Positions 1 through 40,190 of a stretch of 64,000 bases of DNA are shown here, piece by piece. Below the pieces are notes generated by a model that saw only the letters and a program-made list of their open reading frames with translations, was not told the DNA's origin and made no database searches. Numbering within the stretch: position 1 is the first letter of the stretch; every line of letters begins with the position of its first letter. The DNA comes from Alistipes sp. (GTDB lineage: Bacteria; Bacteroidota; Bacteroidia; Bacteroidales; Rikenellaceae): the NCBI GenBank assembly GCA_017465055.1, contig JAFTWZ010000040.1, positions 1 to 64,000 of the forward strand. The letters are read 5' to 3'. The translations under genes and the position numbers were made by a program.

Positions 1-592
1 TCTGTGGCGATCTTCCTTTGTTTATACTTCTGCACTGATACGTAGGAGCCCAAATAGTGCTCCGCACGGCACACACAACTATCAATCACACTCCGCACGG
101 CCCTATAAACAGCGGAAGACCCCCACGTCGGAGCATAGTTGCGTTATCTCACTCCGCAAACTCATACTTGCTCCTCCTCGGGGTGACGAGGTTTATTGCT
201 GCCGTCGCGATATTCGCAGGCTCGTGACAACCATTAAGAATCGTCATCGCGAAGAATTGCATCTACGAGCGGTGGTGATACCCACTTGGGTCTATGCAAT
301 TCTGTGGCGATCTTCATTTGTTTATACTTCCGCTCTGATACGTAAGAGTTGTAATCACAATTCGCACGGCACTCACGACTATCAATCACACTCCGCACGG
401 CCCTATAAACAGCGGAAGACCCCCACGTCGGAGCATAGTGGCGTTATCACACTCCGCAAACTCATACTTGCTCCTCCTCGGGGTGACGATATTTATATTC
501 TCCCCACTGAAAATTTACGATAGAGCCCATATATCGACTCAAAACAATTTTCGCATAATTTTTTATGTCCCACCGGAATTTACGACTGAGCC
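1..592 (+). repeat. Composite dispersed repeat, copy I (left end outside window)
   Basis: Two direct copies of a ~250-bp unit lie at 1-189 (truncated by the window start) and 242-489, joined by a ~52-bp spacer. The complete unit begins CGTCATCGCGAAG and ends CTCGGGGTGACG, so its ends are short inverted repeats. An internal hairpin pairs GAATTGCAT (254-262) with ATGCAATTC (294-302). The right outer end at 570-592 is a 23-bp sequence found, with variation, at the ends of the related elements near 19.0 and 40.2 kb. No convincing gene is seen; an open frame at 224-523 is a by-product of the repeat. The element lies just beyond the 3' end of the metallophosphoesterase gene. Confidence 0.8.
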
Positions 593-610
593 ATCTTTCC
601 TACCACCTGC

Positions 611-1786
611 CTACAACTTCGCCTCGAACTTGCGGCCGAAGCGGTCTGTTGCAGTAATAGTTATTTCGCTATTTTCTACGGTGCGACGCAGACGATAGTA
701 GTGGCTTCGTAGGGTTGCCGAGCGGCGTAGACGCTCCAAGTACTTCTTGCCATAATCTGCCTCATACTCAACGTAGTGCATATAATCTGGGTCGTACATC
801 TCGACCTGATCCATAGCGCCCATTGGCGCTCCATTCTCCGACCACTCGACGCGCCATTTATCGTCCCAGCCGACAACCTTAACAACGACATACTCGTCGC
901 TACCCTCAACCTGACCCTCGCGCCACACGACCAATCTATCGTCTGCCCCTCGGCCAAGCATACGGTGGTGCCACTGCCACTCTCCGTTGCGCTCCTCGAT
1001 GCAGAATACTCCCCTCGGCGTACCGTCCGAGCATATAGGCGCAAACCATAGGTTGCCACTCACCTGCGCCACGCTGTGCTCATAGAGTTGAGGGGTGTGC
1101 TCGGCGGTGTTGTGGCGATGGCGGTGTCCAGTCACAAAGTGCAGCTCTCTATCGCCCACGATGTCGACCATAGGCTGTGCGTATGGCTTGATTATCCCGC
1201 TGTTAAAATCTGTCGCCGAGGCGTGCATACATAGAGCCACGCGCCTTGCCTCGGGGTGATTAGCCATCTCCGATTCGAGCCATAGAAGCTGCATAGCATC
1301 CACCTCCTCGCGATATGTTTTATTGGGATTGAACATAATATTATCGAGCGTCAGGAAGAGCGTCTCTCCAAGTATAAAGCTCTGATTACGTGGTCCAAAC
1401 GTCTTGACATACGGTTTCTCGGCGCGTGCATCCTTGCAGAAGAAGGCGCGGTTGTGGTCGTGGTTGCCGATAACGGCATAGACCTCTACGCCGAGGCTCT
1501 CGAAGGCGCTCTTTACGCGTGGCAGGAATCGCATCGTATCCCACACCACATCGCCCGTAAGGAGTATCGCCGTAGGCCTATCGCTCTCGGCCCTATACTC
1601 CTCGACAATCTTAGCAATCTGGGGCACAATCACCTGCTCAAGTTCGCGTAGTTGCGCCTTAGTCTGAGGCTGCGGATCGCCCACAACGATAAGGTTAAAA
1701 CCATCGTCTGATGGCTGCTGTGCCGAGGCCACCACCACGCTACCGAGAGTTGCCAAAATGGCAAATATAAGTCTTAATTTTCTCAT
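611..1786 (-). CDS. Secreted calcineurin-like metallophosphoesterase
   Basis: A 391-residue protein with an N-terminal signal peptide (MRKLRLIF then a hydrophobic stretch ending ASAQQ), so probably periplasmic or exported. Metal-binding motifs of the calcineurin-like phosphoesterase fold appear in order: GDPQPQ (~res 36), GDVVWD (~78), GNHDHN (~107), CMHAS (~186) and TGHRHRHN (~219). All expected ligands are present, so it should be a dinuclear metal phosphoesterase. Residues ~260-391 look like the C-terminal domain that often accompanies bacterial members. The substrate cannot be read from sequence; a phosphomonoesterase or phosphodiesterase is possible. It is a single gene, divergent from dnaX, with its own TACCTTTG promoter element. 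Confidence 0.88.
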   Translation of the reverse strand: MRKLRLIFAILATLGSVVVASAQQPSDDGFNLIVVGDPQPQTKAQLRELEQVIVPQIAKIVEEYRAESDRPTAILLTGDVVWDTMRFLPRVKSAFESLGVEVYAVIGNHDHNRAFFCKDARAEKPYVKTFGPRNQSFILGETLFLTLDNIMFNPNKTYREEVDAMQLLWLESEMANHPEARRVALCMHASATDFNSGIIKPYAQPMVDIVGDRELHFVTGHRHRHNTAEHTPQLYEHSVAQVSGNLWFAPICSDGTPRGVFCIEERNGEWQWHHRMLGRGADDRLVVWREGQVEGSDEYVVVKVVGWDDKWRVEWSENGAPMGAMDQVEMYDPDYMHYVEYEADYGKKYLERLRRSATLRSHYYRLRRTVENSEITITATDRFGRKFEAKL

Positions 1787-1810
1787 AGTCTAACTGACGT
1801 TAAATTTTTG

Positions 1811-1818
1811 CAAAGGTA
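1811..1818 (-). promoter_or_regulatory. -7 promoter element of the metallophosphoesterase
   Basis: CAAAGGTA on the plus strand is TACCTTTG on the minus strand, an exact match to the Bacteroidota -7 consensus TAnnTTTG. It lies 25 bp upstream of the ATG at 1786. No clear -33 TTG at usual spacing was seen. Confidence 0.65.
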
Positions 1819-1913
1819 ATATAATATCGCAAAAAGCAGAGTGCCGAGAGCATAAAAGCCATCACGCGCGCGAAAAAAGTTGCCCAACAAGGAGAAGGAA
1901 CGGAAAAAATTAC

Positions 1914-1921
1914 TACCTTTG
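1914..1921 (+). promoter_or_regulatory. -7 promoter element of dnaX, implying a near-leaderless mRNA
   Basis: TACCTTTG matches TAnnTTTG exactly and ends only 7 bp before the dnaX ATG at 1929. With a usual start about 5-8 bp after the element, transcription would begin at or next to the start codon. The alternative is that this match is fortuitous and the true promoter lies further upstream. Confidence 0.6.
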
Positions 1922-1928
1922 TCGAGTT

Positions 1929-3782
1929 ATGGAGAATTTTGTTGTATCAGCACGTAAGTATCGCCCCGCAACGTTTGCATCTGTTGTGGGTCAGCGACAC
2001 ATAACCTCTACGCTTAAGAACGCCATTGAGCGCGGCCAGCTGGCTCACGCCTACCTCTTCTGCGGCCCTCGCGGTGTGGGCAAGACCACCTGTGCGCGTA
2101 TCTTCGCCAAGGCGATCAACTGTCTCAACCCGCAGTCGGGCGAGGCCTGCAACGAGTGCGAGTCGTGCCGCTCGTTCAACGAGGGACGCTCGCTCAATGT
2201 TCACGAACTCGATGCTGCGTCGAACAACTCGGTCGATGATATCCGCAACCTCATCGAGCAGGTGCGCATCATTCCCCAGCAGGGACGCTACTCGGTCTTC
2301 GTCATCGACGAGGTACATATGCTCTCTGCTTCGGCCTTCAACGCCTTTCTTAAGACGCTCGAGGAGCCTCCGCGCCACGCTATATTTGTCCTTGCGACCA
2401 CCGAGAAGCATAAGATTATACCCACGATCCTCTCGCGCTGCCAGATCTACGACTTCAACCGTATACGCGTTGAGGACGGCGTTGAGTATCTGCGATATAT
2501 CGCCTCGCAGGAGGGTGTCGAGGCCGACGACGAGGCTCTCAACCTCATAGCCCACAAGGCCGATGGCGGTATGCGCGACGCTCTCTCGATGTTCGACAAG
2601 GCGGTATCGTTCTGCGGCAATAAGCTCGACTATAAGGATGTAGCCGCTACGCTCAACGTACTCGACTACGACACCTACTTCTCGATTACCGAATTGCTGC
2701 TTACGGGTAACTATGTCGATGCGCTGCTACGCTTCGACGAGGTACTCGCGCGCGGCTTCTCGCCCCAGGTATTCATCTCGGGCCTCAATGCCCACTTCCG
2801 CGACCTGCTGATGTCGCAGGGCCCAGCCATCACGTTGGTGGAGTTTACCGGGCGGCTGATCGAGCGATATAAGGAGCAGGCGGCAAGGTGCGACAAGCAG
2901 TTCTTGTTTAACGCCATCTCGCTACTAACGGAGGCAGATGGTAAGATACGACAGTCGTCGAATCAACGACTACTTGTAGAGCTGGGACTTATGAAACTTG
3001 CAGGTCTCGGCCAAAAAAAAAATGGAGAGATAGATAGCGACACCTTCGAGGTATACTTCGAGCTTCCAGAGTTAGTCGCCCCCACGCCACAAGCCGTAGC
3101 ACAAGCGCCACAGCCATCACACCAAGAGCATAAGGTGGAGAGAGTGGCGGAGGGAGCACCAAAGAGCGAGGGCACACAGCCTAAGCCACAGCCCAAACCT
3201 ACGACGAGCGAGCCTCGCACAGAGAGGCCTATCGCCGAGGGCCGCAGCGCCTCTTCGCGTCCCACGCCGAGCGAGGGTAGACCACAGGGCAGCAGGTCGT
3301 TTGCTACGCTTAGGCCTATGACCCAGAAGGTATCTCTTATGGGAGTCCTCGAGGGTGGCATTAAGAGTTCCGCAGAGTTAGAGGCCGAGGCCCACGAGGA
3401 GGCTGTGCGTATGGCTACCAATATCGACCCTATGTGCGCCGAGAAGATTACGGCTGCACAGGATAAGATTATCGAGAGCCTGCTTACCACGCGCCCACGC
3501 CTCGGTCGAGCATTCGAGAGTATGACCGTCGAGGGCAACACCGTGCGCACCACGGTAGCCTCACAGGCCCTCTGCGACGAGATTATGCTCGAGAAGAGCG
3601 AGCTACAGAAGCTCTTCGCCTCGATGAGTGGAGTTACGGGACTCATAGAGATTGAGGTCGAGGTCAACGAGCGCATCAAGGTATCGCGCCCCATAACCCT
3701 CGAGGATAGACTTAAGCACCTCATAGGCCGCAACGAGCGACTTACGGAGATGATAAGCGTCTTGGGCCTCGACGCTGAGTAA
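1929..3782 (+). CDS. dnaX: DNA polymerase III subunit gamma/tau
   Basis: Clamp-loader ATPase that loads the beta sliding clamp; the long tau form also couples polymerase to helicase in the replisome. The 617-residue product has the Walker A motif GPRGVGKTT (res 46-54), zinc-binding cysteines at 65, 74, 77 and 80, Walker B VFVIDEVHML (~125), sensor 1 ATTEKHK and the SRC motif ILSRCQ (~175). Residues ~365-480 are a Pro/Gln/Ser-rich linker. The C-terminal ~130 residues would be the tau-specific region. A run of ten A residues at 3013-3022 falls at codons 362-365, at the end of the clamp-loader core. Slippage in either direction reaches a stop within a few codons. The ATG start is fixed by the promoter element immediately upstream and by the conserved N-terminus. 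Confidence 0.97.
   Translation: MENFVVSARKYRPATFASVVGQRHITSTLKNAIERGQLAHAYLFCGPRGVGKTTCARIFAKAINCLNPQSGEACNECESCRSFNEGRSLNVHELDAASNNSVDDIRNLIEQVRIIPQQGRYSVFVIDEVHMLSASAFNAFLKTLEEPPRHAIFVLATTEKHKIIPTILSRCQIYDFNRIRVEDGVEYLRYIASQEGVEADDEALNLIAHKADGGMRDALSMFDKAVSFCGNKLDYKDVAATLNVLDYDTYFSITELLLTGNYVDALLRFDEVLARGFSPQVFISGLNAHFRDLLMSQGPAITLVEFTGRLIERYKEQAARCDKQFLFNAISLLTEADGKIRQSSNQRLLVELGLMKLAGLGQKKNGEIDSDTFEVYFELPELVAPTPQAVAQAPQPSHQEHKVERVAEGAPKSEGTQPKPQPKPTTSEPRTERPIAEGRSASSRPTPSEGRPQGSRSFATLRPMTQKVSLMGVLEGGIKSSAELEAEAHEEAVRMATNIDPMCAEKITAAQDKIIESLLTTRPRLGRAFESMTVEGNTVRTTVASQALCDEIMLEKSELQKLFASMSGVTGLIEIEVEVNERIKVSRPITLEDRLKHLIGRNERLTEMISVLGLDAE
3013..3022 (+). promoter_or_regulatory. A10 slippery tract inside dnaX (possible gamma-producing site)
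   Basis: The frame reads Gln362-Lys-Lys-Asn through ten consecutive A. A -1 shift adds K-W-R-D-R and stops at TAG 3035-3037 (about 369 residues). A +1 shift adds M-E-R and stops at TAG 3031-3033 (about 367 residues). Both products would end at the boundary between the ATPase/collar domains and the linker. Transcriptional slippage on an A9 tract in Thermus dnaX and ribosomal frameshifting in E. coli dnaX are known precedents. Use of this site here is inferred. Confidence 0.6.
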
Positions 3783-3835
3783 CACCCTCGCACCCAAAAG
3801 GCAAGCGGCGGATGGCAGCCTACTAATTCGCTAAT

Positions 3836-3850
3836 GCTCAGGATGACAGC
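3836..3850 (+). repeat. Short dispersed motif shared with the queD 3' region
   Basis: The 15-mer GCTCAGGATGACAGC here is the exact reverse complement of 16026-16040, and similar bases flank it on both sides. It lies between dnaX and tyrS, just downstream of the dnaX stop. At 16.0 kb the same motif forms one arm of a hairpin; here no full hairpin is obvious. Confidence 0.5.
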
Positions 3851-3898
3851 GAGTAAAGAGGATTGTTAATTGCTAATTTTAAATTTAAAAGAGATATT

Positions 3899-5194
3899 AT
3901 GATTAAGGATTTTGTTCAAGAGCTCGAGTGGCGCGGTATGATCCACACCATAATGCCAGGAGCTAAGGAGCAGCTACAGAAGGAGATGACCTCGGCATAC
4001 TTGGGCATCGACCCTACGGCCGACTCACTACACATAGGACACCTCGTAGGTGTTATGATTCTCAAGCACTTCCAGATGTGTGGCCACCGCCCCATCGCCC
4101 TTATTGGCGGTGCTACGGGTATGATTGGCGACCCCTCGGGTAAGTCGCAGGAGCGCAACCTCCTCGACGAGGCTACGTTGCGCCATAACCAGGAGGCTAT
4201 CAAGAACCAGCTGGCAAAGCTTATCGACTTCGACTCTACGGCCGACAACCACGCCATCTTGGTCAACAACTACGACTGGATGAAGGAGTTCTCGTTTTTG
4301 GACTTTGCACGCGACATCGGCAAGTGCATCACCGTGAACTATATGATGGCTAAGGACTCTGTTAAGAAGCGCTTCAATGGCGAGGGCGACGGTATGTCGT
4401 TTACGGAGTTTACCTACCAGCTCCTCCAGGGCTACGACTTCCTACACCTCTACCAGGAGTATGGCTGTAAGCTACAGCTCGGCGGTGCCGACCAGTGGGG
4501 CAACATAACTACAGGTACGGAGCTTATACGCCGCAAGCTCGGCGCCGAGGCCGAGGCCTTCGCTATCACCTGCCCACTCATCACCAAGGCCGACGGCACG
4601 AAGTTTGGCAAGACCGAGTCGGGCAACGTATGGCTCGACCCACGCTACACCTCGCCATATAAGTTCTACCAGTTCTGGCTCAACGTGAGTGACGACGACG
4701 CTAAGCGCTACATCAAGATATTCACGCTGCTCGACCGCGAGACTATCGAGACACTCATCGCTCAGCACGACGAGGCACCACACCTGCGCATCCTGCAGAA
4801 GCGCCTGGCCGAGGAGATTACTACGATGATTCACTCTAAGGAGGAACTCGAGAAGGCACAGGCTGCTACCAACATCCTCTTCGGCAACGCCACCTCGGAG
4901 GCGCTACGCTCGCTCGACGAGGCTACGCTGCTCCAGGTATTCGAGGGTGTGCCACAGTTCACCATCTCGCGCGACAACCTCGAGAGGCCATTTATCGACA
5001 TCATTGCCGACGTCTGCAAGGTCTTCCCATCGAAGGGCGAGTGCCGCAAGATGGTCCAGGGCGGTGGCGTGCAGCTCAACAAGGAGAAGGTAGTGGATGC
5101 TATGCGCCCCATTACCGAGGCCGACCTTATCGCAGGCAAATACCTCCTTGTGCAGCGCGGCAAGAAGAACTACTATCTGATAACCATAGAGTAG
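3899..5194 (+). CDS. tyrS: Tyrosyl-tRNA synthetase
   Basis: Cytoplasmic class I aminoacyl-tRNA synthetase that charges tRNA-Tyr. The 431-residue protein has the HIGH motif (HIGHLVG, res 45-48), a tyrosine-site region GGADQWGNI (~198) and a KMSKS-equivalent KFGKT (~235). An S4-like RNA-binding domain lies at the C-terminus (~360-431, including [13 protein letters not shown]). An in-frame ATG exists at 3863, but the extra residues ([11 protein letters not shown]) are translated AT-rich leader. The ATG at 3899 gives the conserved [13 protein letters not shown] start. It is followed 7 bp later by folB, probably co-transcribed. Confidence 0.96.
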
Positions 5195-5201
5195 GGCGAC
5201 G

Positions 5202-5561
5202 GTGGAGAGACTATATACCATACGCCTCGACGGCATCTACCTGCGTGCCTTTCACGGCTGCTACGACCTTGAGCAGCAGGTGGGCAACCGCTTTCGCGTC
5301 GACCTTGTGATACGCACCGCGCTGGGCACGCTGCCCGAGAGCGACGATGTCCGCCAGGCGGTCAACTACCTCACCGTCTACGAGATTGTTGAGAGGTCGA
5401 TGAAGCGTACACGCCGCACCATCGAGGCAGCGGCTACCGACATTATCAACGCTGTGCGCGAGGCCTTTCCTCAGATTGTCGAGATGGAGTGCACCGTATC
5501 GAAGATTGCACCGCCACTGGGAGGCAAGATTGATAGAGTATCGGTAACGCTAATAGGTTAA
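5202..5561 (+). CDS. folB: Dihydroneopterin aldolase
   Basis: Cleaves 7,8-dihydroneopterin to 6-hydroxymethyl-7,8-dihydropterin and glycolaldehyde in folate synthesis. The 119-residue length is typical. Family features include the N-terminal strand IRLDGIYLRAFHGCYDLEQ, a central NYLTVYEIV segment and the C-terminal KIAPPLGGKIDRVSV with the conserved lysine. The start is GTG at 5202, only 7 bp after the tyrS stop; no ATG nearby would keep the conserved N-terminal strand. Close packing suggests an operon with tyrS. Confidence 0.92.
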   Translation: MERLYTIRLDGIYLRAFHGCYDLEQQVGNRFRVDLVIRTALGTLPESDDVRQAVNYLTVYEIVERSMKRTRRTIEAAATDIINAVREAFPQIVEMECTVSKIAPPLGGKIDRVSVTLIG

Positions 5562-5672
5562 GGTGGACTCTATAAATTCGGTCGAGTTGTTTTTTAATAT
5601 TCAGAAGCGACCGAAAAAGAATCTGCCGAGAACGAAGAGCATATTTACTAATTTGTAGGACATAGATTAAAT

Positions 5673-7010
5673 ATGGCACAAGAGACAAAAAAACGTGGTG
5701 GCTTTGGTGGCAAGATTGCCGCCATCCTCGCCGCCGCAGGCTCGGCGATAGGTCTGGGCAACATCTGGCGCTTTCCATACATCACCTCGGAGAATGGTGG
5801 TGGCGCATTCATCATCATCTACTTAGGATGCATCCTGCTTTTAGGCCTACCACTGCTCATCGCAGAGTTTGCCGTGGGCCACAACTCTAAGAGTAACCCC
5901 ATCGACGCCTTCTCGAAGATTCGTAAGGGCTGGGGCTGGTTGGGTGCAGCAGGCCTTATCTCCGTAACCCTGATTATGGGCTACTACTTCGTAATCTCGG
6001 GCTGGACGCTTAACTACGCCCTCGCCTCGGCGACAAATAGCATCGGAGGCGACTATGGCGCCTTCTTCACGACCTTTACCACCGCCACGTGGAAGCCGCT
6101 GATATATACCTACATCTTCATCATTGCCAACCACTTCATTATCATCGGTGGTGTGCAGGGTGGCATCGAGAAGGCATCGAAAATTATGATGCCACTGCTC
6201 TTTGTCATACTTATAGTCTTGGCTATCTACTCGCTGTGGCTCCCCGAGGGTCGCGAGGCGCTGGGCAACGTCTTCACCCCCGACTTCTCTAAGGTATCGG
6301 GCAAGACCTTCCTCGACGCTATGGGCCAGGCCTTCTTCACCCTCTCTATCGGTATGGGTGCAATGCTTATCTATGGCTCGTACTTCAAGAAGGGCACAAA
6401 GCTCGCTGGCACGGCTATCAGCGTAGTGTCGCTCGATACCATCGTAGCTCTCACCGCCGCCATTATCATCTTCTCAGCAGGTGTCGAGAACGAGAGTGGT
6501 ATGCAGCTGGCGTTTGTGGCTATGCCTAAAGTCTTTGCCTCGATGCCCGCAGGCAATATCTGGGCGATGCTCTTCTTCCTGCTCTTAGCCCTTGCCGCCC
6601 TCTCGTCAACGATATCGATGCACGAGGCCGTCACCTCGTACTTTGTCGAGAAGCGCGGTATGTCGCGTAACAAGGGCGCGTGGATCGTTACGTTCATAGC
6701 CTTAGTTTTGGCGACTGCAGCGTCGTTGTCACTTGGCGACTGGAGCGAGTTTAAGGTTGCAGGTATGAACTTCTTCTCGCTACTCGACAACTTCACGGCT
6801 ATCGTTATGTTGCCACTTCTGGGTATCCTCACCTCGGTATTCGTTGGCTGGGTGTGGAAGAGAGATGATATGCGCGCCGAACTTACGGCCGAGGGTGGCA
6901 TCGACAAGGCTACCTACCCGGTCATCCGCTTCCTGCTTCGCTACGTATGCCCCGTGCTGGTATCTGTAGTCTTTGTCTTCGGCATCTACGACTTCATAAG
7001 TAACTTATAA
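5673..7010 (+). CDS. Sodium-dependent transporter, neurotransmitter:sodium symporter (SNF) family
   Basis: An inner-membrane, Na+-coupled symporter of the LeuT fold; bacterial members usually carry amino acids such as tryptophan, tyrosine or leucine. The 445-residue protein starts with a short polar leader. The signature of TM1 follows (GSAIGLGNIWRFPYITSENG, res ~24-43), with the unwound sodium/substrate region, then about ten further hydrophobic segments. TM6-like residues AFFTLSIGMGAMLIYGSY (~220) are conserved in the family. The substrate cannot be assigned. Its own ATG lies 111 bp after folB, in an AT-rich gap holding an imperfect TCGGTCG/CGACCGA inverted repeat. Confidence 0.93.
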   Translation: MAQETKKRGGFGGKIAAILAAAGSAIGLGNIWRFPYITSENGGGAFIIIYLGCILLLGLPLLIAEFAVGHNSKSNPIDAFSKIRKGWGWLGAAGLISVTLIMGYYFVISGWTLNYALASATNSIGGDYGAFFTTFTTATWKPLIYTYIFIIANHFIIIGGVQGGIEKASKIMMPLLFVILIVLAIYSLWLPEGREALGNVFTPDFSKVSGKTFLDAMGQAFFTLSIGMGAMLIYGSYFKKGTKLAGTAISVVSLDTIVALTAAIIIFSAGVENESGMQLAFVAMPKVFASMPAGNIWAMLFFLLLALAALSSTISMHEAVTSYFVEKRGMSRNKGAWIVTFIALVLATAASLSLGDWSEFKVAGMNFFSLLDNFTAIVMLPLLGILTSVFVGWVWKRDDMRAELTAEGGIDKATYPVIRFLLRYVCPVLVSVVFVFGIYDFISNL

Positions 7011-7039
7011 TCAAACAACAATAAAAACTAAGAGACAAT

Positions 7040-8653: not shown

Positions 8654-8672
8654 TATGTAGACCTATGATTAC

Positions 8673-8701
8673 GGGGGTGTCCTACGACGATGGATACCCC
8701 C
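8673..8701 (+). terminator. Likely terminator hairpin after fumarase
   Basis: GGGGGTGTCC pairs with GGATACCCCC (one G-U wobble) around a 9-nt loop, 20 bp after the fumarase stop. No strong T-tract follows. A second small hairpin, AACGCC/GGCGTT, lies at 8727-8745. Confidence 0.55.
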
Positions 8702-8782
8702 TAATTATGGGCCAATATAGCAATAAAACGCCACCAAAGGGCGTTATAGAGACATCTGAATAAGGATGAAGAGAGTATTGTA

Positions 8783-16111: not shown

Positions 16112-19006
16112 ATGCGCCAAAGCCTATACCTTATCGACGCCTATGCGCTGATATTCAAGTACTACTACGCCTTTATGGGGCGCCCTATGCGTAGCCGTAG
16201 CGGGATGAACACCTCCTTAATATTTGGCTTCACGAAGTTTTTGCGCGACATCCTGCGCCGCGAGAAGCCCGACCTTATAGGCGTAGCATTCGACCCACCT
16301 GGGGGCTGCTTCCGCCGCGAGATGTTCGCCGAATATAAGGCCAACCGCCCCCCAACGCCCGAGGATATAGTCCTCTCGGTGCCATATGTCAAGCGCCTGT
16401 TAGAGGCTATGCGCATACCTATTCTCGAGGTTGCAGGCTACGAGGCCGACGACGTAATCGGCACGTTAGCAAAGCGTGGCGCCGAGGCTGGCTACAACGT
16501 CTTTATGGTTACGCCCGACAAGGACTACGGACAGCTTGTCGACGACAGCTGCGTGATATACCGCCAGAAGGGCGACATTACAGAGATTGTCGACCGCCAG
16601 GCCATAGCCGAGAAGTATGGCATCGCAGACCCTACGCTTGTGCGCGACATCTTGGCCCTCTGGGGCGATAGTGCCGACAACATCCCTGGCGTCCCGGGCA
16701 TAGGCGAGAAGGGAGCTTCAAAGTTGGTGCGCCAGTGGGGCGAGGTGGAGAACATCCTGGCCAACACCACAGCGATAGGTGGCAAGACGGGTAAAAATAT
16801 CGCCGAGTGGGGCGAGAAGCTACTGCTTGCCAAGAGGCTCACGACGATATGCACCGACGTGCCTATAGAGTTTGTGGCCGACAATTTCAAGATCAGCGAG
16901 CCGAACTACGCCGAGCTGCGCGGACTATATACCGAGCTGAACTTCTCGTCGTTCCTCCGCGACTTGGAGAATGTTGCCGTCGACGAGCCAGCAAGCGATG
17001 GCCCACACCAGGAGGCGCAGACACAGCTTCAGGAGGTGTCGCGCGCCAAGGCCGAGGCTAAGCGCCGCGCCAGCCTCGAGGGCCAGGGCGACCTCTTTGC
17101 CTCGTTCGATGCCCCAGCGCCTGCACCTGCAGCGCCAGCAGCCGAGGCCGCCACAACAGACTCCGAAACCGCCGAGGGTGCGGATATTATCTCGGAGATG
17201 GCCACCATAGCCACCACACCACACAACTACCACACGATACTCAGCGCCGAGGAGCTACGCACGCTATGTGCCAAGATAAAGAGCTACTCAGAGCTATGCT
17301 TCGACACCGAGACCACGGGCCTTGACCCGATAAATAGCCGCATCGTAGGCCTATCGTTTGCCGTAGAGAGGGGCGAGGCGTGGTACCTACCGTTTAATAC
17401 CGAGGGTAGCGAGCAGTATGCCGATATTTTGCGCCCTATATTTGAGGATGAGCGCATTACAAAGATAGGACAGAATATTAAGTTCGACATTATGGTCCTG
17501 CGTGGCATAGGTATCGAGGTGCGTGGCCGCAAGATAGATACTATGCTTCTGCACTACCTTATCGACTCCGAGTCGCGCCATAATATGGACTTCTTGGCCG
17601 AGCGATATCTTAACTACCGCCCTATAGCCATCGAGACGCTTATAGGCAAGGGCACGAAGCAGCTCACGATGGATATGGTAGGCATCGAGCGCGTGGCCGA
17701 ATATGCTGCCGAGGATGCCGATATCACGCTCAGGCTCAAGCACGAGCTATACCCCATCGTCGAGTCGCTCGGGATGAAGGATCTGTACCACCGCATCGAG
17801 GAGCCTATGATCGACGTGTTAGCCTCTATGGAGCTCCAGGGCGTGCGCATCGATAGCGCGGCGCTGAACAACTACGCCATAGAGCTTCGCCAGCTCTTGG
17901 CAAGCCTCGAGGCCGAGGTGCGCGAGATGACTGGCGAGGCAGAGCTAAATATCAACTCGTCGCGCCAGCTTGGCGAGGTGCTCTTCGGTAAGATGCGCAT
18001 TACGGAGAAGCCCAAGATGACCAAAACCAAGCAGTTCTCGACCGAGGAGGAGTACCTCCAGGGCTTTGCACGCAGCTTTCCCGTCGTTGGCAAGGTGCTC
18101 GAATATCGCGGTGTCAAGAAGCTGCTATCGACCTATGTCGAGGCACTCCCCGAGCTGGTAAATAGAACTTCGGGCAAGATACACACCTCGTACAATCAGG
18201 CAGTTACGGCCACAGGACGTCTATCGTCGACAAACCCTAACCTGCAGAATATACCTATACGCGACGAGTTAGGCAAGCCTATACGTCGGGCCTTTGTCGC
18301 CTCGGACAAGGATCATACGTTGGTTGCTGCCGACTACTCTCAGATTGAGCTACGCCTTATGGCCCACCTCAGTGGCGACGAGGCACTCATCAGCGCCTTC
18401 CTCGATGGCGAGGATATCCACTCGGCCACTGCCGCACGCCTCTATGGCAAGCAGCCGAGCGAGGTGACAAGCGACGAGCGTCGCCGCGCCAAGACCGCCA
18501 ACTTCGGCATCATATATGGCATCTCGGCCTTTGGCCTTGCCCAGAGGCTCGACATCGCCAACCGCGACGCTAAGGAGCTTATCGATAACTACTTCGCCTC
18601 GTATCCAGGCGTCAAGGCATATATGGATGGGGCCGTTGCGCGTGCCACGGAGAGTGGCTATGTCGAGACTATGTTTGGTCGCCGCCGACAGCTTCGCGAC
18701 ATCACATCGTCGAACCGCACGGTGCGTGGCGTCGCCGAGCGTAACGCCATCAATGCCCCCATTCAGGGCTCGGCCGCCGATATTATGAAGCTCGCGATGA
18801 TCGAGATAGAGCGCCGCTTCAGGGCCGAGGGCATCGCCTCGAAGATGATTATGCAGGTGCACGACGAGGTTGTCATCGACACGCTCAACAGCGAGCTCGA
18901 GGCTGTCAAGCGCATCGTCAAGGAGGCTATGGAGAGCGTTGCCACACTTCGCGTACCCCTTATCGCCGAGGTCAATAGCGGCGCCACGTGGCTCGAGGCC
19001 CACTAA
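16112..19006 (+). CDS. polA: DNA polymerase I
   Basis: Repair and lagging-strand polymerase. The 964-residue protein has three intact domains. The N-terminal 5'-3' exonuclease (~1-290) contains YEADDVIGTLAK and ALWGDSADNIPGVPGIGEKG. The 3'-5' proofreading exonuclease has FDTETTGLDP (~396), GQNIKFDIMVLRG and YAAEDADITL. The polymerase has motif A DYSQIELRL (~740), motif B KTANFGIIYG (~793) and motif C MQVHDEVVID (~913). All catalytic acids are present, so unlike Taq-type enzymes it should proofread. A variable Ala/Pro-rich linker lies at ~300-365. Its stop codon falls in an 8-bp sequence that may be the target-site duplication of the adjacent repeat. Confidence 0.97.
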   Translation: MRQSLYLIDAYALIFKYYYAFMGRPMRSRSGMNTSLIFGFTKFLRDILRREKPDLIGVAFDPPGGCFRREMFAEYKANRPPTPEDIVLSVPYVKRLLEAMRIPILEVAGYEADDVIGTLAKRGAEAGYNVFMVTPDKDYGQLVDDSCVIYRQKGDITEIVDRQAIAEKYGIADPTLVRDILALWGDSADNIPGVPGIGEKGASKLVRQWGEVENILANTTAIGGKTGKNIAEWGEKLLLAKRLTTICTDVPIEFVADNFKISEPNYAELRGLYTELNFSSFLRDLENVAVDEPASDGPHQEAQTQLQEVSRAKAEAKRRASLEGQGDLFASFDAPAPAPAAPAAEAATTDSETAEGADIISEMATIATTPHNYHTILSAEELRTLCAKIKSYSELCFDTETTGLDPINSRIVGLSFAVERGEAWYLPFNTEGSEQYADILRPIFEDERITKIGQNIKFDIMVLRGIGIEVRGRKIDTMLLHYLIDSESRHNMDFLAERYLNYRPIAIETLIGKGTKQLTMDMVGIERVAEYAAEDADITLRLKHELYPIVESLGMKDLYHRIEEPMIDVLASMELQGVRIDSAALNNYAIELRQLLASLEAEVREMTGEAELNINSSRQLGEVLFGKMRITEKPKMTKTKQFSTEEEYLQGFARSFPVVGKVLEYRGVKKLLSTYVEALPELVNRTSGKIHTSYNQAVTATGRLSSTNPNLQNIPIRDELGKPIRRAFVASDKDHTLVAADYSQIELRLMAHLSGDEALISAFLDGEDIHSATAARLYGKQPSEVTSDERRRAKTANFGIIYGISAFGLAQRLDIANRDAKELIDNYFASYPGVKAYMDGAVARATESGYVETMFGRRRQLRDITSSNRTVRGVAERNAINAPIQGSAADIMKLAMIEIERRFRAEGIASKMIMQVHDEVVIDTLNSELEAVKRIVKEAMESVATLRVPLIAEVNSGATWLEAH

Positions 19007-19010
19007 TAGC

Positions 19011-19702
19011 GGCTCAGTCGTAAATTCCGGTGGGGATTGAAGAAAATTATGCAAAAATAGTAGCTAAACGAAATATAAATATCGTCACCCCGAGGAGGAG
19101 CAAGTAAGAGTGTGCGGAGAGTGATAACGCCACTATGCTCCGACGTGGGGGTCTTCCGCTGTTTATAGTGCCGTGCGGAGTGTGATTGATAGTCGTGTGT
19201 GCGGTGCGAATTGTGATTACAACTCTTACGTATCAGTGCGGAAGTATAAACAAATGAAGATCGCCACAGAATTGCATAGACCCAAGTGGGTATCACCACC
19301 GCTATTAGATGCAATTCTTCGCGATGACGATGTTTAATGGTTGTCACGAGCCTGCGAATATCGCGACGGTAGAAATAAACCTCGTCACCCCGAGGAGGAG
19401 CAAGTAAGAGTGTGCGGAGTGTGATAACGCCACTATGCTCCGACGTGGGGGTCTTCCGCTGTCTATAGGGCCGTGCGGAGTGTGATTGATAGTCCTGCGT
19501 GACGCGCAGAGTGTGATTGATAGTCCTGTGTGCGGTGCGAATTGTGATTACTACTCTTACGTATCAGTGCGGAAGTATAAACAAAGGAAGATCGCCACAG
19601 AATTGCATAGACCCAAGTGGGTATCACTACCGCTATTAGATGCAATTCTTCGCGATGACGTACTATGTTATTAATTACTCCACCAGAATTATCTCCTGAT
19701 CC
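19011..19702 (-). repeat. Composite dispersed repeat, copy II (complete, MITE-like)
   Basis: The ends 19011-19033 and 19680-19702 are 23-bp imperfect terminal inverted repeats (17 of 23 match). Flanking octamers CTAATAGC (19003-19010) and CTAATTGC (19703-19710) differ at one base and could be a target-site duplication. Inside are two direct copies of the ~250-bp unit, 19083-19330 and 19383-19660, in the opposite orientation to the copy at 0-0.6 kb. They are joined by the same spacer as there. The second unit contains a ~27-bp internal tandem duplication. No transposase or plausible protein is present; open frames across it follow the repeat. It lies between polA and the ferredoxin gene. Confidence 0.82.
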
Positions 19703-19722
19703 CTAATTGCTACTACAAACCA

Positions 19723-31128: not shown

Positions 31129-31148
31129 CCACTACGCGCCCGAGCGAC

Positions 31149-31179: not shown

Positions 31180-31254
31180 CGAGGCAATATACGAGGTCCT
31201 ATGGGCGTTTCGATTGTGATTGATAGATAAAAAGATAAATAACATATAAAAGCG

Positions 31255-32253: not shown

Positions 32254-32288
32254 GGGGACTTATTTACTAACTTACAGACCATCCCATA

Positions 32289-34309: not shown

Positions 34310-35187
34310 TGGGTAAGTACTTATATAATAGTTATATAGGCATTGCATTTGTAGTCACAATGTTCTTGCTACTCGGCACTACCGATGCCGAGGCGCAGTA
34401 CCTGCGTGAGCGCGGCCTTGTGCGCCAGGGAAACAGCAGCTTCGAGAGGCGTAACTACCGCACGAGTCTCAACCGCTACAACCAGGCCTTGGAGCACGAC
34501 TCTACAAGCTACGAGGCGCTCTACAACCGCGCCAATGCCCACCATCAGGTGCGTCGCACAAACCCTCAGGACTCGACGCTCAAGGCCGAGACCACGTATG
34601 GTTATTATGAGCAGATTGCGGCCGACACGCTCCTAAGCGATATGCAGCGCGCTGAGGTATTGCGTAACCTCGGAGAGAGTCTCTTTAGCGAGGAGAAGTA
34701 CGAGGCGGCACTCAACGCCTTCCGCGAGTCGCTACGTCTAAATCCCGATGACAAGGAGACTAAGTACGACTACGTGCTCACCAAGCGTATCGTGGACCAG
34801 AAGCGTCAGCAACAGCAGAATCAGCAAAATCAGGATAATAACCAACAGCAAGATAATCAGCAGGATAACCAACAAAATAATCAGAATAACCAGAACCAAA
34901 ATCAAGACCAGGAGCAGAAGCAAAATCCCGACCAGAATCAGGATAACAAGCCTCAGAACGACAAGAATCAGGAGGGCGACAATCCAGATAAGGAGCAGGA
35001 GAACAACCCCCAGGAGGGTGATAACAAGCCCGAGGAGGGAGATGCTCCTCAGGGCGATGAGCCTCGCGAGCTAAAGAGCGACCAGGAGCGTATGCTCGAC
35101 GCTATACAGGCCGAGGAGGATAAGACTCAGGATAAGCTCAAGGAGAAGAAGAGAGGCGTGGTAATCCCTGGTAAGAAGAATTGGTAA
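34309..35187 (+). CDS. batC: BatC-like TPR protein with Gln/Asn-rich tail
   Basis: A 292-residue envelope protein. A signal peptide or N-terminal anchor (IAFVVTMFLLLGTTDAEAQ) precedes TPR-type helices (RQGNSSFERRNYRTSLNRYN, YEAALNAFRESLRLNPDDKE, ~res 40-155). Residues ~165-265 are a low-complexity Gln/Asn/Asp/Glu-rich segment. The C-terminus is charged. TPR plus Gln-rich tail matches BatC of Bacteroides. Here it precedes batA rather than following batB, a different order from the common batABCDE arrangement. Confidence 0.8.
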   Translation: MGKYLYNSYIGIAFVVTMFLLLGTTDAEAQYLRERGLVRQGNSSFERRNYRTSLNRYNQALEHDSTSYEALYNRANAHHQVRRTNPQDSTLKAETTYGYYEQIAADTLLSDMQRAEVLRNLGESLFSEEKYEAALNAFRESLRLNPDDKETKYDYVLTKRIVDQKRQQQQNQQNQDNNQQQDNQQDNQQNNQNNQNQNQDQEQKQNPDQNQDNKPQNDKNQEGDNPDKEQENNPQEGDNKPEEGDAPQGDEPRELKSDQERMLDAIQAEEDKTQDKLKEKKRGVVIPGKKNW

Positions 35188-35198
35188 CACTCGACACT

Positions 35199-36176
35199 AT
35201 GCAGTTTCTAAATCCATATATACTTCTACTACTGGTAGCCCTACCACTGCTTGCAACGCACTATATCGCGGCAGGCCGCAAGCGAGCTACGCTTACAGTC
35301 TCCGCAGCCTCGGGTCGCGCACCTCGCACACTGCGATACTGGCTGCGCCACCTACCCTTCGCACTGCGACTTATGGCCATCGCCGCCGCGGTAGTGGCCC
35401 TGGCACGCCCCGTAGAGGTGCACAACCAGAGCGAGACAACAACCGAGGGTATCGACATAGTGATAGCTATGGATATCTCGAGTTCGATGCTTGCGCGCGA
35501 CTTTACCCCCGACCGTCTTACGGCCGCCAAGCAGCTCGCAACGGAGTTTACGGCCGAGCGCACGGGCGACCGCATCTCGGTAGTAGCCTTCGCTGGCGAG
35601 GCATTCACACAGTGTCCCCTGACGTCGGACCAGGCGGCCGTGGGCACTATGCTCTCGCGCCTGCGTAGTGGCGTGGTCGACGATGGCACGGCGATAGGCA
35701 ACGGCTTGGCAACAGCCATAAACCGTCTGCGCGAGAGTGGCGCTAAGTCGAAGGTGGTGGTACTGCTCACCGATGGCGTCAACAACCGAGGACAGATATC
35801 GCCTATTATGGCTGCCGACATAGCTCGCGACCTGGGCATCAAGGTCTACACCATAGGCGTGGGTAGCCGCGACAAGGCCCCTATGCCTGCACAGGATATG
35901 TTCGGCAATATGACGTATGTAATGGCCGACGTCGAGATTGACGAGGAGCTACTGCGCGACATAGCCTCGAAGACCTCGGGGCAATACTTCCGCGCCAGCG
36001 ATAACGAGGCGCTTAGAGGCATATACCAGCAGATTAACGAGCTGGAGAAGAGCGAGGTGCAGGTGACGCACTACACCTCGTACGAGGAGCACTTCGCTGG
36101 GTGGCTACTATTAGCACTTATGCTCCTGGCCGCAGAGTTTATCGTAGCACGTATGGTGCTCAACAGACTCCCATAG
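35199..36176 (+). CDS. batA: BatA-like von Willebrand factor A membrane protein
   Basis: A 325-residue inner-membrane protein with an N-terminal helix (LNPYILLLLVALPLLATHY), a second helix (~res 50-70), then a VWA domain. The metal-ion site is intact: DISSSM (D-x-S-x-S, ~94), a Thr in SGVVDDGTAIGNG and VVLLTDGVNN. A C-terminal helix (GWLLLALMLLAAEFIVA) closes it. An upstream TTG at 35181 overlaps the batC stop; the ATG at 35199, 12 bp after batC, directly precedes the conserved FLNPYIL and is preferred. Confidence 0.9.
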   Translation: MQFLNPYILLLLVALPLLATHYIAAGRKRATLTVSAASGRAPRTLRYWLRHLPFALRLMAIAAAVVALARPVEVHNQSETTTEGIDIVIAMDISSSMLARDFTPDRLTAAKQLATEFTAERTGDRISVVAFAGEAFTQCPLTSDQAAVGTMLSRLRSGVVDDGTAIGNGLATAINRLRESGAKSKVVVLLTDGVNNRGQISPIMAADIARDLGIKVYTIGVGSRDKAPMPAQDMFGNMTYVMADVEIDEELLRDIASKTSGQYFRASDNEALRGIYQQINELEKSEVQVTHYTSYEEHFAGWLLLALMLLAAEFIVARMVLNRLP

Positions 36177-36204
36177 AGGAGGATAACCGAAAACAAGTGA
36201 TACT

Positions 36205-37263
36205 ATGGTCGAGACAAACATATTTATCTTTGCTCACAGCCAGTGGCTATGGCTACTCTTAGCCGTTGGCCTGCTGCCGCTCCTCTACTGGATGCTTAGG
36301 CTCTACTCGCGCCGTAAGCTACGTAGATTGGGCAACGAGGCGACACTTAAAGCCCTTATGCCCGACTACTCATCCTCGCGCGGATGGGTCAAAATAGCGT
36401 TGCTGTGCCTATCGCTAAGCCTTATGATCGTAGCGCTGGCACGCCCACAGACAGGCTCGAAGCTGCGCCAGCTCGAAAGCAACGGCCGCGAGATAGTGCT
36501 CTTAGTAGATGTCTCGAACTCGATGCTCGCCGAGGATGTCACACCCAGTCGTATGGCCCGCACGCGCTATGCCATCACGCGCCTATTGGAGAGTATGAAC
36601 GAAGATCGCGTAGGCATCGTAGCCTTTGCCGACGAAACCGAGGTGCTACTACCAATCACGGGCGACTACAAGATGGCCGAGGCTGTGACAAAGCGCCTCT
36701 CGCCCGAGCTTATCGCCGAGCAGGGAACAGATATCGGCAAGGCTCTGGAGGTGGCACTACTATCGTTTACGCGCACCACGCAGAGTAGCGGTAGCCGCGT
36801 AGTGATACTCATCACCGATGGCGAGGCCCACGACCAGAGTAGCGAGAAGGCCATAGAGTTGGCAAAGCAGGAGGGCGTTATGGTCTGCGCCATAGGTATA
36901 GGCACCCCCGAGGGCGTACCCCTCAAAATCAACGGCAAGCATATCGAAGATGAGGAGGGAAAGATGGTAGTCACCAAGCTCGGCGAGCCGCTGCTCCAGC
37001 AGATTGCCGAGGCTACGGGAGGCATATACACACGCTCGCGCAACGAGAGCTTCGGCTTAGAGGAGATTATCGAGCGCCTCGACCAGATGGAGGCCATAGA
37101 GCTTACGCATATGACCTTCGAGGAGTACGACGAACAGTATCAGTGGTTCTTGGGCGCAGGTCTGCTACTGCTTATCGCCGAGTTGCTTATCCTCGACAGA
37201 CGCAACCCACTGCTCCGTGGCGTACACCTCTTCGAGCGTGGCGATAACGTGAAGCAACGCTAA
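36205..37263 (+). CDS. batB: BatB-like von Willebrand factor A membrane protein
   Basis: A 352-residue paralogue of the preceding protein with the same layout. An N-terminal helix (WLWLLLAVGLLPLLYWMLR) and a second helix come first, then a VWA domain with metal site DVSNSM (~res 99), the threonine in EQGTDIGKALE and VILITDGEAHD. A C-terminal helix (FLGAGLLLLIAELLIL) follows. Two VWA proteins side by side with MoxR are the hallmark of the Bat system. It is the last gene of the operon; batD and batE, normally next, are at 8.8-11.4 kb. Confidence 0.9.
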   Translation: MVETNIFIFAHSQWLWLLLAVGLLPLLYWMLRLYSRRKLRRLGNEATLKALMPDYSSSRGWVKIALLCLSLSLMIVALARPQTGSKLRQLESNGREIVLLVDVSNSMLAEDVTPSRMARTRYAITRLLESMNEDRVGIVAFADETEVLLPITGDYKMAEAVTKRLSPELIAEQGTDIGKALEVALLSFTRTTQSSGSRVVILITDGEAHDQSSEKAIELAKQEGVMVCAIGIGTPEGVPLKINGKHIEDEEGKMVVTKLGEPLLQQIAEATGGIYTRSRNESFGLEEIIERLDQMEAIELTHMTFEEYDEQYQWFLGAGLLLLIAELLILDRRNPLLRGVHLFERGDNVKQR

Positions 37264-37345
37264 CGGTGCAGAGTCCAGAAAATTGAGATAGGGATTAAAA
37301 ATATTATAATTTACTAACAAATAACTACTTAAACCACAGAGAATT

Positions 37346-38800
37346 ATGACTATTCGTGATTTAGAGCCTAAACTTATTTGGGAGCAGTTTGATGACATCA
37401 CACGTGTTCCACGTCCTTCGAAGAAGGAGGAGAAGATAATCGCTTGGCTTGTAGAGTTTGCCCAGCGCCACAACATCGAGTACCAGACCGACCAGACTGG
37501 CAACGTCGTGATGCGTAAGCCTGCAACCCCAGGCTACGAGTCGCGCCCAGCCGTTATCCTTCAGTCGCATATGGATATGGTCTGCGAGAAGAACTCGAAC
37601 GTGGAGTTCGACTTCGAGAACGACGCTATACGTACCAAGATTGATGGCGAGTGGGTAAAGGCTGAGGGTACGACACTCGGCGCCGACTGCGGTATCGGTA
37701 TGGCCGCAGCCCTTGCTGTGCTCCTCGACACCACGCTCGAGCACCCCGCTATCGAGGCACTCTTCACCGTAGATGAGGAGACAGGCCTTACGGGTGCCTT
37801 TGGTCTGGGCGAGGGTATGCTTACGGGTAAGTACTTAGTAAACCTCGACTCGGAGGATGAGGGCGAGATATTTATCGGCTGCGCTGGCGGTATCGACACC
37901 GTAGCTACGCTCAACTACGAGAGCGAGCCTTGTCCCGAGGGCTACACCTTCGTGCGCCTCGAGATTGGCGACCTCTTGGGAGGTCACTCTGGCGACGACA
38001 TCGACAAGGGCCGCGCCAACTCTAACAAGCTCCTTGCTCGCTTCCTCTACAACGCCATTGATAAGTTCCAGGTTGCACTTGCCGAGTTCAACGGCGGTAA
38101 CCTCCGCAACGCGATACCACGCGAGGCATATGCCATCGTAGGTGTGCCCGCGGCCGAGGTCGAGGACTTCGAGGAGCGATACTTGGAGTTTGGTCAGATG
38201 ATGATGGAGGAGTTCAAGCACACCGAGCCACGTATGCGCTTTACGGTTACCGACGCGACAACGCCTGCAAAGGTGGTCTCGAACGATGACCTCTGCTATC
38301 TGCTTCTCGCCCTGGTAGGTCTTCCTAATGGCGTGCTCGGTATGTCGTTTGCAATGCCAGGCCTCGTAGAGACATCGTCGAACCTTGCATCGGTAAAGTT
38401 CAACACCGAGGATGACGAGGTTGTAGTTACCACGTCGCAGCGCTCCTCTGTCGAGAGTGCTAAGCTCTACGCAGCTCAGACCATCGAGTCGGTATTCTAC
38501 CTCTCGGGCTTCGACGTCGAGCACTCGGATGGCTACCCAGGCTGGGCACCCAACCCCGAGTCTAAGCTCCTGACCGAGACTGTTCAGTGCTACCGCGACC
38601 TATTCAACGCCGAGCCTAAGGTGCGCGCCATACACGCAGGCCTCGAGTGCGGTCTCTTCCTCGAGAAGTACCCACACCTCGAGATGGTGTCGTTCGGCCC
38701 TACGCTACGCGGCGTACACTCGCCCGACGAGCGCCTCGAGATTGCCACTGTAGATAAGTTCTGGAGGCTGCTGGTAGAGCTTCTCAAGCGTATAGCATAA
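37346..38800 (+). CDS. pepD: Aminoacyl-histidine dipeptidase (M20 family)
   Basis: Dinuclear zinc dipeptidase releasing the residue before histidine, as in carnosine-type substrates. The 484-residue length is usual. M20 motifs are intact: the first metal histidine in LQSHMDMV (~res 75), the bridging aspartate in TTLGADCGIGMA, the catalytic glutamate pair in VDEETGLTG (~145), DSEDEGEI (~169) and a C-terminal histidine in AIHAGLECG (~430). It is cytoplasmic with no signal peptide. It follows the Bat operon after an 82-bp AT-rich gap. Confidence 0.94.
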   Translation: MTIRDLEPKLIWEQFDDITRVPRPSKKEEKIIAWLVEFAQRHNIEYQTDQTGNVVMRKPATPGYESRPAVILQSHMDMVCEKNSNVEFDFENDAIRTKIDGEWVKAEGTTLGADCGIGMAAALAVLLDTTLEHPAIEALFTVDEETGLTGAFGLGEGMLTGKYLVNLDSEDEGEIFIGCAGGIDTVATLNYESEPCPEGYTFVRLEIGDLLGGHSGDDIDKGRANSNKLLARFLYNAIDKFQVALAEFNGGNLRNAIPREAYAIVGVPAAEVEDFEERYLEFGQMMMEEFKHTEPRMRFTVTDATTPAKVVSNDDLCYLLLALVGLPNGVLGMSFAMPGLVETSSNLASVKFNTEDDEVVVTTSQRSSVESAKLYAAQTIESVFYLSGFDVEHSDGYPGWAPNPESKLLTETVQCYRDLFNAEPKVRAIHAGLECGLFLEKYPHLEMVSFGPTLRGVHSPDERLEIATVDKFWRLLVELLKRIA

Positions 38801-38827
38801 CTCCTCGAGGGTCGTTACGACTATCGT

Positions 38828-39898
38828 ATGGTCAGTGCTGTTGATATAGTCAACTATTTGCGACATTGGCCCATCCATCTCGACACGCTCGGCGATATCG
38901 TGATAGATAGCGATAGCATTGTCGTGGGCAACAACTCTGTCATCGCTCGGTGCTCGATTAAGGGCATCGAGGGTGACAAGTCGCTCAAGTGCTACTACAG
39001 GCCACCACAGATGCAACACAACGTCGACAATACGCACTACATTAAGCGTGGACTTAGTATACCTACCCTTGCGGGCATAGTTACGGCAATAGATATTCTA
39101 ATCTCGGACTGGATTGATGGAGAGCCGCTCTCGGATGTTATCCACGACAAGAGTTGTAACTTCAAGATGCTGAGCCGCGCCTTCGACACCTTAGCCTACG
39201 ACATACTATCGAGGGAGTATGTCCACTGCGACATCACGCCCGACAATATCGTAGTCAACGGCGATAGGATGTACCTCATAGATATGGACGCTGTGCGGTA
39301 TCCTGAGCTTGAACCGCACGAGGAGTACGAATACGGCACTCAACACTTTAGCCATCGACACAGAGACTTCTCAAGCAACGAGCATAAGGACGACTACCCT
39401 ATTGCCGCCATATCGACGATATTGGCAGCCCTGGCTACATATCAAGGCCTAAAGAGAGTTCCGCAGCTGCTCATAGAGTTTGGCCACGACAACCTGCATA
39501 ATGCCATCACCTTTGCCCAGAGGCGTCTATTGGATAGGCGAGATATGGTGCACTACCAGATTGGCGCGGAGACAACCAATTTGTTGGGAAAGATTTCCAA
39601 CCTCAGAATGTTGCTCGCTTTGGCCATAGGCCGGGATGATTCGCCAAGCGCGCTGGAGGCGAAGAGCGACACCCAGCCTTCGGCACAAACGATAAGGTCG
39701 TGGACCAACGACGATGATGAGCACTTGGTTATGTGGCTCACGGAGGGGGTCGCGATAGATAGGATATGCGCAGCCCTGCGCCGCACGCCTAACGATGTGC
39801 GACACCGCATAAAGAGTCTATCGATAGATATAGCCTTTAGGAGCAAAGCTCGCGAGATGCTACTATTTGATGATATGATGCGGACAACGACCAAGTGA
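38828..39898 (+). CDS. Protein kinase-like protein with C-terminal Myb/SANT-like domain
   Basis: A 356-residue protein without a named family that I recognise. Residues ~20-240 carry protein-kinase-like elements. A possible beta-3 lysine is K54 (SLKCYY). The catalytic loop HCDITPDN (133-140) supplies the Asp and Asn of HxDxxxxN, and LIDMDAV (150-156) replaces DFG. No clear glycine-rich loop is visible. Residues ~291-333 read SWTNDDDEHLVMWLTEG, then IDRICAALRRTPNDVRHRI; the spaced tryptophans and the final helix resemble a Myb/SANT DNA-binding repeat. The combination suggests a kinase or pseudokinase that also binds DNA. It lies 27 bp after pepD, at the edge of an accessory region. Confidence 0.7.
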   Translation: MVSAVDIVNYLRHWPIHLDTLGDIVIDSDSIVVGNNSVIARCSIKGIEGDKSLKCYYRPPQMQHNVDNTHYIKRGLSIPTLAGIVTAIDILISDWIDGEPLSDVIHDKSCNFKMLSRAFDTLAYDILSREYVHCDITPDNIVVNGDRMYLIDMDAVRYPELEPHEEYEYGTQHFSHRHRDFSSNEHKDDYPIAAISTILAALATYQGLKRVPQLLIEFGHDNLHNAITFAQRRLLDRRDMVHYQIGAETTNLLGKISNLRMLLALAIGRDDSPSALEAKSDTQPSAQTIRSWTNDDDEHLVMWLTEGVAIDRICAALRRTPNDVRHRIKSLSIDIAFRSKAREMLLFDDMMRTTTK

Positions 39899-39908
39899 TG
39901 TAGAGATA

Positions 39909-40190
39909 ATCGCGACGGCAGCAATAAACCTCGTCACCCCGAGGAGGAGCAAGTATGAGTTTGCGGAGTGTGATAACGCCACTATGCTCCGACGTGGGGG
40001 TCTTCCGCTGTTTATAGGGCCGTGCGGAGTGTGATTGATAATTGTGCGTATCAGTGATGAAGTATAAACAAAGGAAGATCGCCACAGAATTGCATAGACC
40101 CAAGTAGGTATCCCTACCGCTCGTAGATGCAATTCTTCGCGATGACGTATTAATATCTTTTATTACTCCACCAGAATTTCAGACAGAGCC
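39909..40190 (-). repeat. Composite dispersed repeat, copy III (single, shortened unit)
   Basis: One unit at 39932-40147 (216 bp) of the same family as the copies at 0-0.6 and 19.0-19.7 kb, minus-oriented like the latter. It lacks about 40 bp in the middle. Left of it, 39909-39931 matches the inter-unit spacer, so a second unit has been lost. The right terminal repeat, 40168-40190, matches the left terminal repeat of copy II at 19 of 23 positions. It starts 10 bp after the kinase-like gene. Confidence 0.8.

Follow-up and report, generated by a model that had tools for sequence, protein, structure and literature searches.

Composite elements in the Alistipes window

The window analyzed here comprises bases 1-64000 of contig C35 (JAFTWZ010000040.1) in the draft genome of a gut bacterium, Alistipes sp. 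(assembly GCA_017465055.1; 2.13 Mb, 49 contigs, estimated 84% complete), and it bears a family of composite, palindrome-containing elements with 23-bp inverted ends. An earlier note had placed three of these, here called copies I, II and III, at 1-592, 19011-19702 and 39909-40190, and they are located as it described. Below, G000 stands for the window's own genome, other G labels for congener genomes, L labels for fetched loci and C labels for contigs.

Copy II (19011-19702, forward strand) is a complete two-unit composite of 692 bp. Its left end (19011-19082) opens with the 23-bp inverted end and continues into 3′-end sequence of an ISAon1-type insertion sequence, including the last transposase codons (as aligned with copy L011). 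There follow, on the same strand, unit 1 (19083-19329), made up of a REP2-like palindrome, a linker with a 31-bp repeat and a REP1-like palindrome (19254-19329, matched on the reverse strand by our model R1); an inter-unit spacer (19330-19382); unit 2, of the 278-bp class (19383-19660); and the right end (19661-19702), which has its 23-bp inverted end at 19680-19702. The element is flanked by CTAATAGC (19003-19010, overlapping the polA stop) and CTAATTGC (19703-19710), a target duplication agreeing at 7 of 8 positions. The earlier description of copy II as complete, with inverted ends and such a duplication, stands.

Copy I (1-592, reverse strand) is likewise a two-unit composite, incomplete because the window begins at base 1 of its contig. 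It retains part of its second unit (1-188), the spacer (189-241), a first unit that is a double palindrome of the 247-bp class (242-488), and a left side (500-592) with a short-type end at about 500-527 and, farther out, a second, exact 23-bp end at 570-592. Copy III (39909-40190, forward strand) consists of a 23-bp stretch (39909-39931) equal to the right part of the spacer, a unit of 216 bp (39932-40147) and a right end (40148-40190) with its inverted end at 40168-40190. Its beginning within the spacer and the lack of an inverted end on its left suggest that it is not a whole element but the right-hand part of a two-unit one, broken in the spacer. The shared unit of about 250 bp is thus recognizable at all five places, whereas the common spacer is whole in copies I and II and present in its right part alone in copy III. 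The shared 23-bp ends were equally well founded: the sequence GGCTCAGTCGTAAATTCCGGTGG occurs exactly at 570-592 (reverse) and 19011-19033 (forward), with no exact match in 100 shuffles of the window, and the right ends of copies II and III agree with it at 18/23 and 19/23 positions (by reading).

A genome-wide family of mostly one-unit elements

The count of three holds for the window; in the whole draft genome copy II matches 53 places, several of them pieces of one element (40 of 55 candidates were scored). In the fetched loci of this genome 52 REP1-side unit junctions were readable, 44 leading into a right end and eight into the spacer; a copy whose parts lie at two different contig ends may have entered this tally twice, and the right-end test has a background of 62 passes in 3000 random stretches. 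The 47 REP2-side junctions lead into a long left end (17), a short left end (11), the spacer (10), other sequence (8) or a contig end (1). Among 22 two-ended copies, 16 measure 324-423 bp and contain one unit, and six are longer (469-748 bp). Hence, the usual element is a monomer of about 360 bp with 23-bp inverted ends, and two-unit forms such as copies I and II are a minority. The earlier suggestion of a non-autonomous element that had dimerized internally therefore covers part of the family: the elements are MITE-like (miniature inverted-repeat transposable elements) by their inverted ends, 8-bp duplications, lack of a supportable protein and transposase-bearing congener relatives, but most two-ended copies hold one unit, the joining spacer was met only 10 times, and the unit is itself a double palindrome found elsewhere without such ends.

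Unit lengths are mostly about 216, 247 or 278 bp, in steps of 31 bp with few intermediates. The 23-bp end pattern has 30 matches in this genome at three or fewer mismatches, and the same pattern written backwards has none. Each of the four possible combinations of two right-end markers is represented (by 11, 14, 2 and 1 copies), which agrees with exchange between copies. As to the spacer, its 33-bp core occurs 10 times in the genome, and nine of these occurrences are identical although the surrounding units differ (in the window it lies within 189-241 and 19330-19382). The spacer, of about 53 bp, was not found away from units; by eye, it resembles a further degenerate CGTC repeat.

ISAon1-type insertion sequences as autonomous relatives

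The degenerate end pattern is present in 7 of 180 genomes of the genus, our own included. In G080, a 1420-bp element bounded by two such ends contains two reading frames, one after the other; the listed start of the upstream one falls outside the element. The larger frame is a DDE_Tnp_ISL3 protein (PF01610, E 3.5e-50), and the frame pair matches NCBIfam models of the ISAon1 family (NF049916 and NF049917 are the accessions of that family), ISAon1_downstr at E 2.3e-139 and ISAon1_upstream at E 6.4e-34; the NCBIfam ISL3 equivalog model scores the transposase below its cut-off (147 vs 180). At E 1e-10, transposase matches were recovered in 10 of 180 genomes; the protein was matched over its full length four times, twice in G080 and once in each of G140 and G126. 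The own genome is not among the 10, and an ISL3 Pfam search of 61 genomes, a sample without G080, yielded matches in three. Three whole insertion sequences have matching ends: L087 (1420 bp), L120 (1419 bp) and L111 (1422 bp), the last flanked by a perfect 8-bp duplication and L120 by a 9-bp direct repeat. Thus, the full-length relative with a transposase and the same ends for which the earlier note proposed to search exists as a 1.42-kb insertion sequence in congeners.

The kinship extends beyond the termini. The inverted end of L087 agrees with the window's left end at 21 of 23 positions, and when the left end of a small element (copy L011) is aligned with the 3′ end of L087, the match runs over 69 bp and scores 52, against at most 16 in 1000 shuffles; an in-frame reading by eye gives the last transposase residues, FRLATIFA, and the stop. 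It is thus well supported at the sequence level that the left ~69 bp of the element are the 3′ end of an ISAon1-type insertion sequence, and such a left end together with the matching ends makes the element a MITE of an ISAon1-type element. At L079 (6792-7002, G001:C31), an exact 23-bp end is followed by an open frame matching the C-terminus of ISAon1-type transposases. This contig may belong to the window's species, in which case the frame might be a relic of a lost autonomous element.

The inner unit: paired CGTC palindromes

The inner unit consists of two related palindromes, REP1 and REP2, and a linker; CGTC stands at each outer end, and there the unit borders are sharp. The REP1 stem, with a 5-bp outer and a 10-bp inner helix around a loop of about 32 nt, is 98.8% paired over 11 sequences (sliding controls at most 40.6%), with compensatory changes in 2 of 15 pairs and a covariation score reached by none of 500 shuffles. 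Its tail reads CTACC in most congeners and CTTCC in the window's genome. The REP1 model matches 39 of the 180 genomes of the genus, our own included, and an order-wide search of 393 genomes gave weak matches in three besides our own.

The surroundings of these matches differ between species. In G114, G109, G103 and G005, the inverted end lies to the left of 13/23 REP1 sites, to the right of 15/23 and on both sides of 9/23, whereas in G092, G106, G129 and seven further loci it lies on either side of 0/23; the background is 0/3000. The two fetched loci of G136 gave no readable REP1 site, and this genome was left out. Eight two-ended elements from the first four genomes include four with duplications at 7 or 8 of 8 positions. 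Near-identical flanks at G005:C82 and G103:C47 mark these two as one shared insertion. In these genomes the right end adjoins REP2, not REP1, with one exception on the probably mis-binned contig G103:C37. As the unit is oriented oppositely relative to the right end in the window's species, there must have been either independent captures or an inversion. The exception is L132 (metagenome-assembled genome RGIG4198, from roe deer colon), identical to L036 (G000:C1) at 593 of 593 positions; this suggests mis-binned contigs, and G001:C31 is suspect likewise. Hence, where G001 and G103 have copies of the window's type, these were kept out of the counts for other species, although one G103:C37 site is still among the six G103 sites of the 23-site tally.

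Target duplications and orthologous loci

In the window's genome, 8-bp target duplications that agree at seven or all eight positions flank 9 of the 22 two-ended copies, perfectly in seven cases, compared with 4/1676 when the ends of different copies were paired. Each copy is counted once in this figure; the raw tally of the script (17 and 13 of 42), for which two end patterns were used, doubles most copies. Among the orthologous loci returned from relatives, 10 polA, five second-gene and 14 ferredoxin loci were checked, and the composite is absent at all 10 polA and all five second-gene loci. Exceptions at the checked loci are an end-like match about 1 kb past polA (L208) and off-site REP1-like matches in two ferredoxin loci.

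Proposed capture of a palindrome pair by a MITE

The elements have terminal inverted repeats, target duplications, no coding capacity, and ends shared with an autonomous element that was found in congeners and not in the own draft. It is the passenger, and not the kind of element (a MITE), that is unusual. We consider it probable that ISAon1-type MITEs captured a CGTC-REP-like dimer (REP, repetitive extragenic palindrome) two or more times, or a single time with the unit inverted afterwards, and then spread it. In the proposed course of events, the transposase gene of an ISAon1-type (ISL3-related) insertion sequence would have been lost and an independent double palindrome with CGTC at both outer ends would have come to lie in its place. 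The 23-bp ends would be bound in trans by an ISAon1-type transposase, which would carry the element to new sites and create the 8-bp target duplications there, with the palindrome pair travelling along as a passenger. Capture would have occurred at least twice, or once followed by inversion, and recombination between copies would give rise to the two-unit forms and the exchanged ends. Of this, sequence comparison shows the inverted ends with their duplications, the origin of the left end in the insertion sequence, the occurrence of the unit without such ends in other species, and its two orientations relative to the right end in different species. Should the passenger serve the host at all, it would most likely do so through transcript 3′ ends, given the strong folding of the element and its frequent position between converging genes.

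Several observations weigh against this account. The own genome gave no transposase match at E 1e-10, in a draft that is 84% complete and has many copies at contig ends. The right end of the MITE scores 20-23 against the insertion sequence and has little in common with it beyond the inverted end. At L087 (element 1501-2920) the flanks are inverted, not direct (ACAAAAGAAG / CTTCCTTTGT), possibly through insertion into the middle of a palindrome. Good duplications are lacking in 13/22 two-ended copies of the own genome and in 4/8 of other species, where one of the four good ones falls within a stretch of Ts. Recombination or nesting may account for the missing ones. One of the four marker combinations is a single copy and 16/44 right ends fall outside the four, and the number of covarying stem pairs in REP1 was reached by 129/500 shuffles. 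Finally, the search for empty sites that the earlier note had called for, made with the joined flanks of three copies against 180 genomes, found no exact one: the coding flanks match, but among the matches listed none crosses the junction convincingly, the furthest (G126) ending about 6 bp past it; the composite is nevertheless absent at the orthologous polA and second-gene loci described above. The joined flanks of three further copies, searched against the own genome, met mostly another mosaic repeat.

Alternative explanations

The inner double palindrome could itself be mobile by its own CGTC ends and have landed in older ISAon1 MITEs, with the outer ends as mere landing sites. Its sharp borders at CGTC would fit, as would the congener units that lack outer ends and the finding of the unit both ways round within ISAon1-type ends, yet every one of the 52 REP1-side junctions of the own genome leads to a right end or the spacer, and the duplications sit outside the outer ends. 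Moreover, Y1_Tnp (PF01797) was matched in 0/61 genomes of the genus at E 1e-5 (incomplete drafts) and in 5/14 control genomes, and mobilization of the REP/REPIN kind by a RAYT (REP-associated tyrosine transposase) was rejected on this absence of PF01797 from the 61 genomes. We hold an independently mobile palindrome to be unlikely.

Selection might alternatively keep the units at gene 3′ ends as structured RNAs or terminators, spread by recombination and not by transposition. Indeed, the monomer folds more stably than its shuffles (z -10.1 on one strand and -5.4 on the other), with weaker values for the unit alone and copy III (z -2.5 to -4.1; 60 shuffles each throughout). The 20 copies examined for gene context lie between converging genes (7), genes of the same direction (6) or diverging genes (3), or inside a called frame (3), with one unclassed; the 7/16 classifiable copies at converging sites compare with 13% of the window's intergenic bases (P 0.0025, with crude gene calling and one window as background). 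Against such an origin stand the inverted ends with 8-bp duplications at unrelated sites, the lack of any Rfam match in the window at gathering scores and the absence of the composite from the orthologous gene ends examined in relatives, and we regard it as very improbable. The same figures bear on the earlier idea that insertion is targeted to gene ends, which they do not establish, although convergent sites look enriched: the genes were called crudely, selection would equally produce such a distribution, and the start of copy III, which had been read as lying just past a gene, is that of a truncated element. That the family is a small peptide-coding cassette, as short open frames of 54-62 aa recurring in the unit might hint, has next to no probability in our view and was rejected, given that five such frames in copies II and III have no Pfam family above cut-off, in keeping with the earlier note's failure to find a supportable protein, and that the 31-bp steps in unit length shift the frame.

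Comparison with known repeat systems

Palindromes tagged with CGTC, most of them dimers that have the tag at their outer ends, are described in passages of Di Nocera et al. 2013 (PMC3733652), who found no dedicated transposase for them and suggested a broad spectrum of transposases as movers. The inner unit resembles these dimers, as far as those passages characterize them, in its outer CGTC tags (an HH dimer), in A-T at the first two stem pairs, in being a heterodimer with a spacer and in the absence of a detected tyrosine transposase from its genomes. It differs in its stem and loop, which measure 8-9 bp and 4-5 nt in the CGTC dimers (versus the 5-bp and 10-bp helices and ~32-nt loop given above), in its tail, which is CCA there and CTACC or CTTCC here, and in being enclosed in insertion-sequence ends. 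As tag, dimer form and first stem pairs are alike while stem, loop and tail differ, we call it CGTC-REP-like and not a member of that class. The same source reports CGTC-1 dimers of Halothiobacillus neapolitanus within 41-bp palindromes, likewise regularly placed in a conserved inverted sequence; unlike here, no transposase family or target duplication is named for it in those passages (PMC3733652).

BrickBuilt of Porphyromonas gingivalis, compared by description only from parts of PMC4596501, is also an intergenic Bacteroidales MITE with an inner repeat (19 copies in ATCC 33277), but its inner part is a 23-bp tandem minisatellite and not a palindrome pair. With the ISAon1 family and ISL3-type insertion sequences, the element shares inverted ends, the 8-bp target duplication (as at L111) and its left 69 bp, and differs from them in lacking a transposase gene and carrying a foreign double palindrome. 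Our searches of open-access literature, which took in passages of PMC10969869, a review on MITEs, showed no description of an ISAon1 MITE carrying such CGTC-REP-like dimers.

Di Nocera et al. 2013, in the passages cited (PMC3733652), left open what moves CGTC-tagged repeats, and the composite suggests one way of spreading: a CGTC-REP-like dimer within the ends of a definite transposase family, with target duplications and in several species, is a concrete and testable carrier. It also illustrates how the fusion of two classes of repeats can yield a single mosaic family, here of dozens of copies. A wider proposal, tentative and in our judgment rather doubtful, is that CGTC-tagged repeats in this lineage owe their spread mainly to repeated capture, either way round, by MITEs of DDE-type insertion sequences; the pairs that today lack such ends would then be copies whose carrier ends have decayed.

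Further repeats beside the elements

At L076 (about 3207-3416, G000:C15), a composite copy is interrupted by about 0.2 kb with inverted ends of about 20 bp (AGAATCTGTTTTAATTTTATT), which looks like another insertion of MITE type. At many places in G000 (e.g., L239-L242), the elements often have as a neighbor a mosaic repeat (AAAGGGTAGTTCGC..GCGAGCTAAAGGG) that contains GAGACGAGAGA microsatellites, and a query including it returned 82 matches, its own sites counted in.

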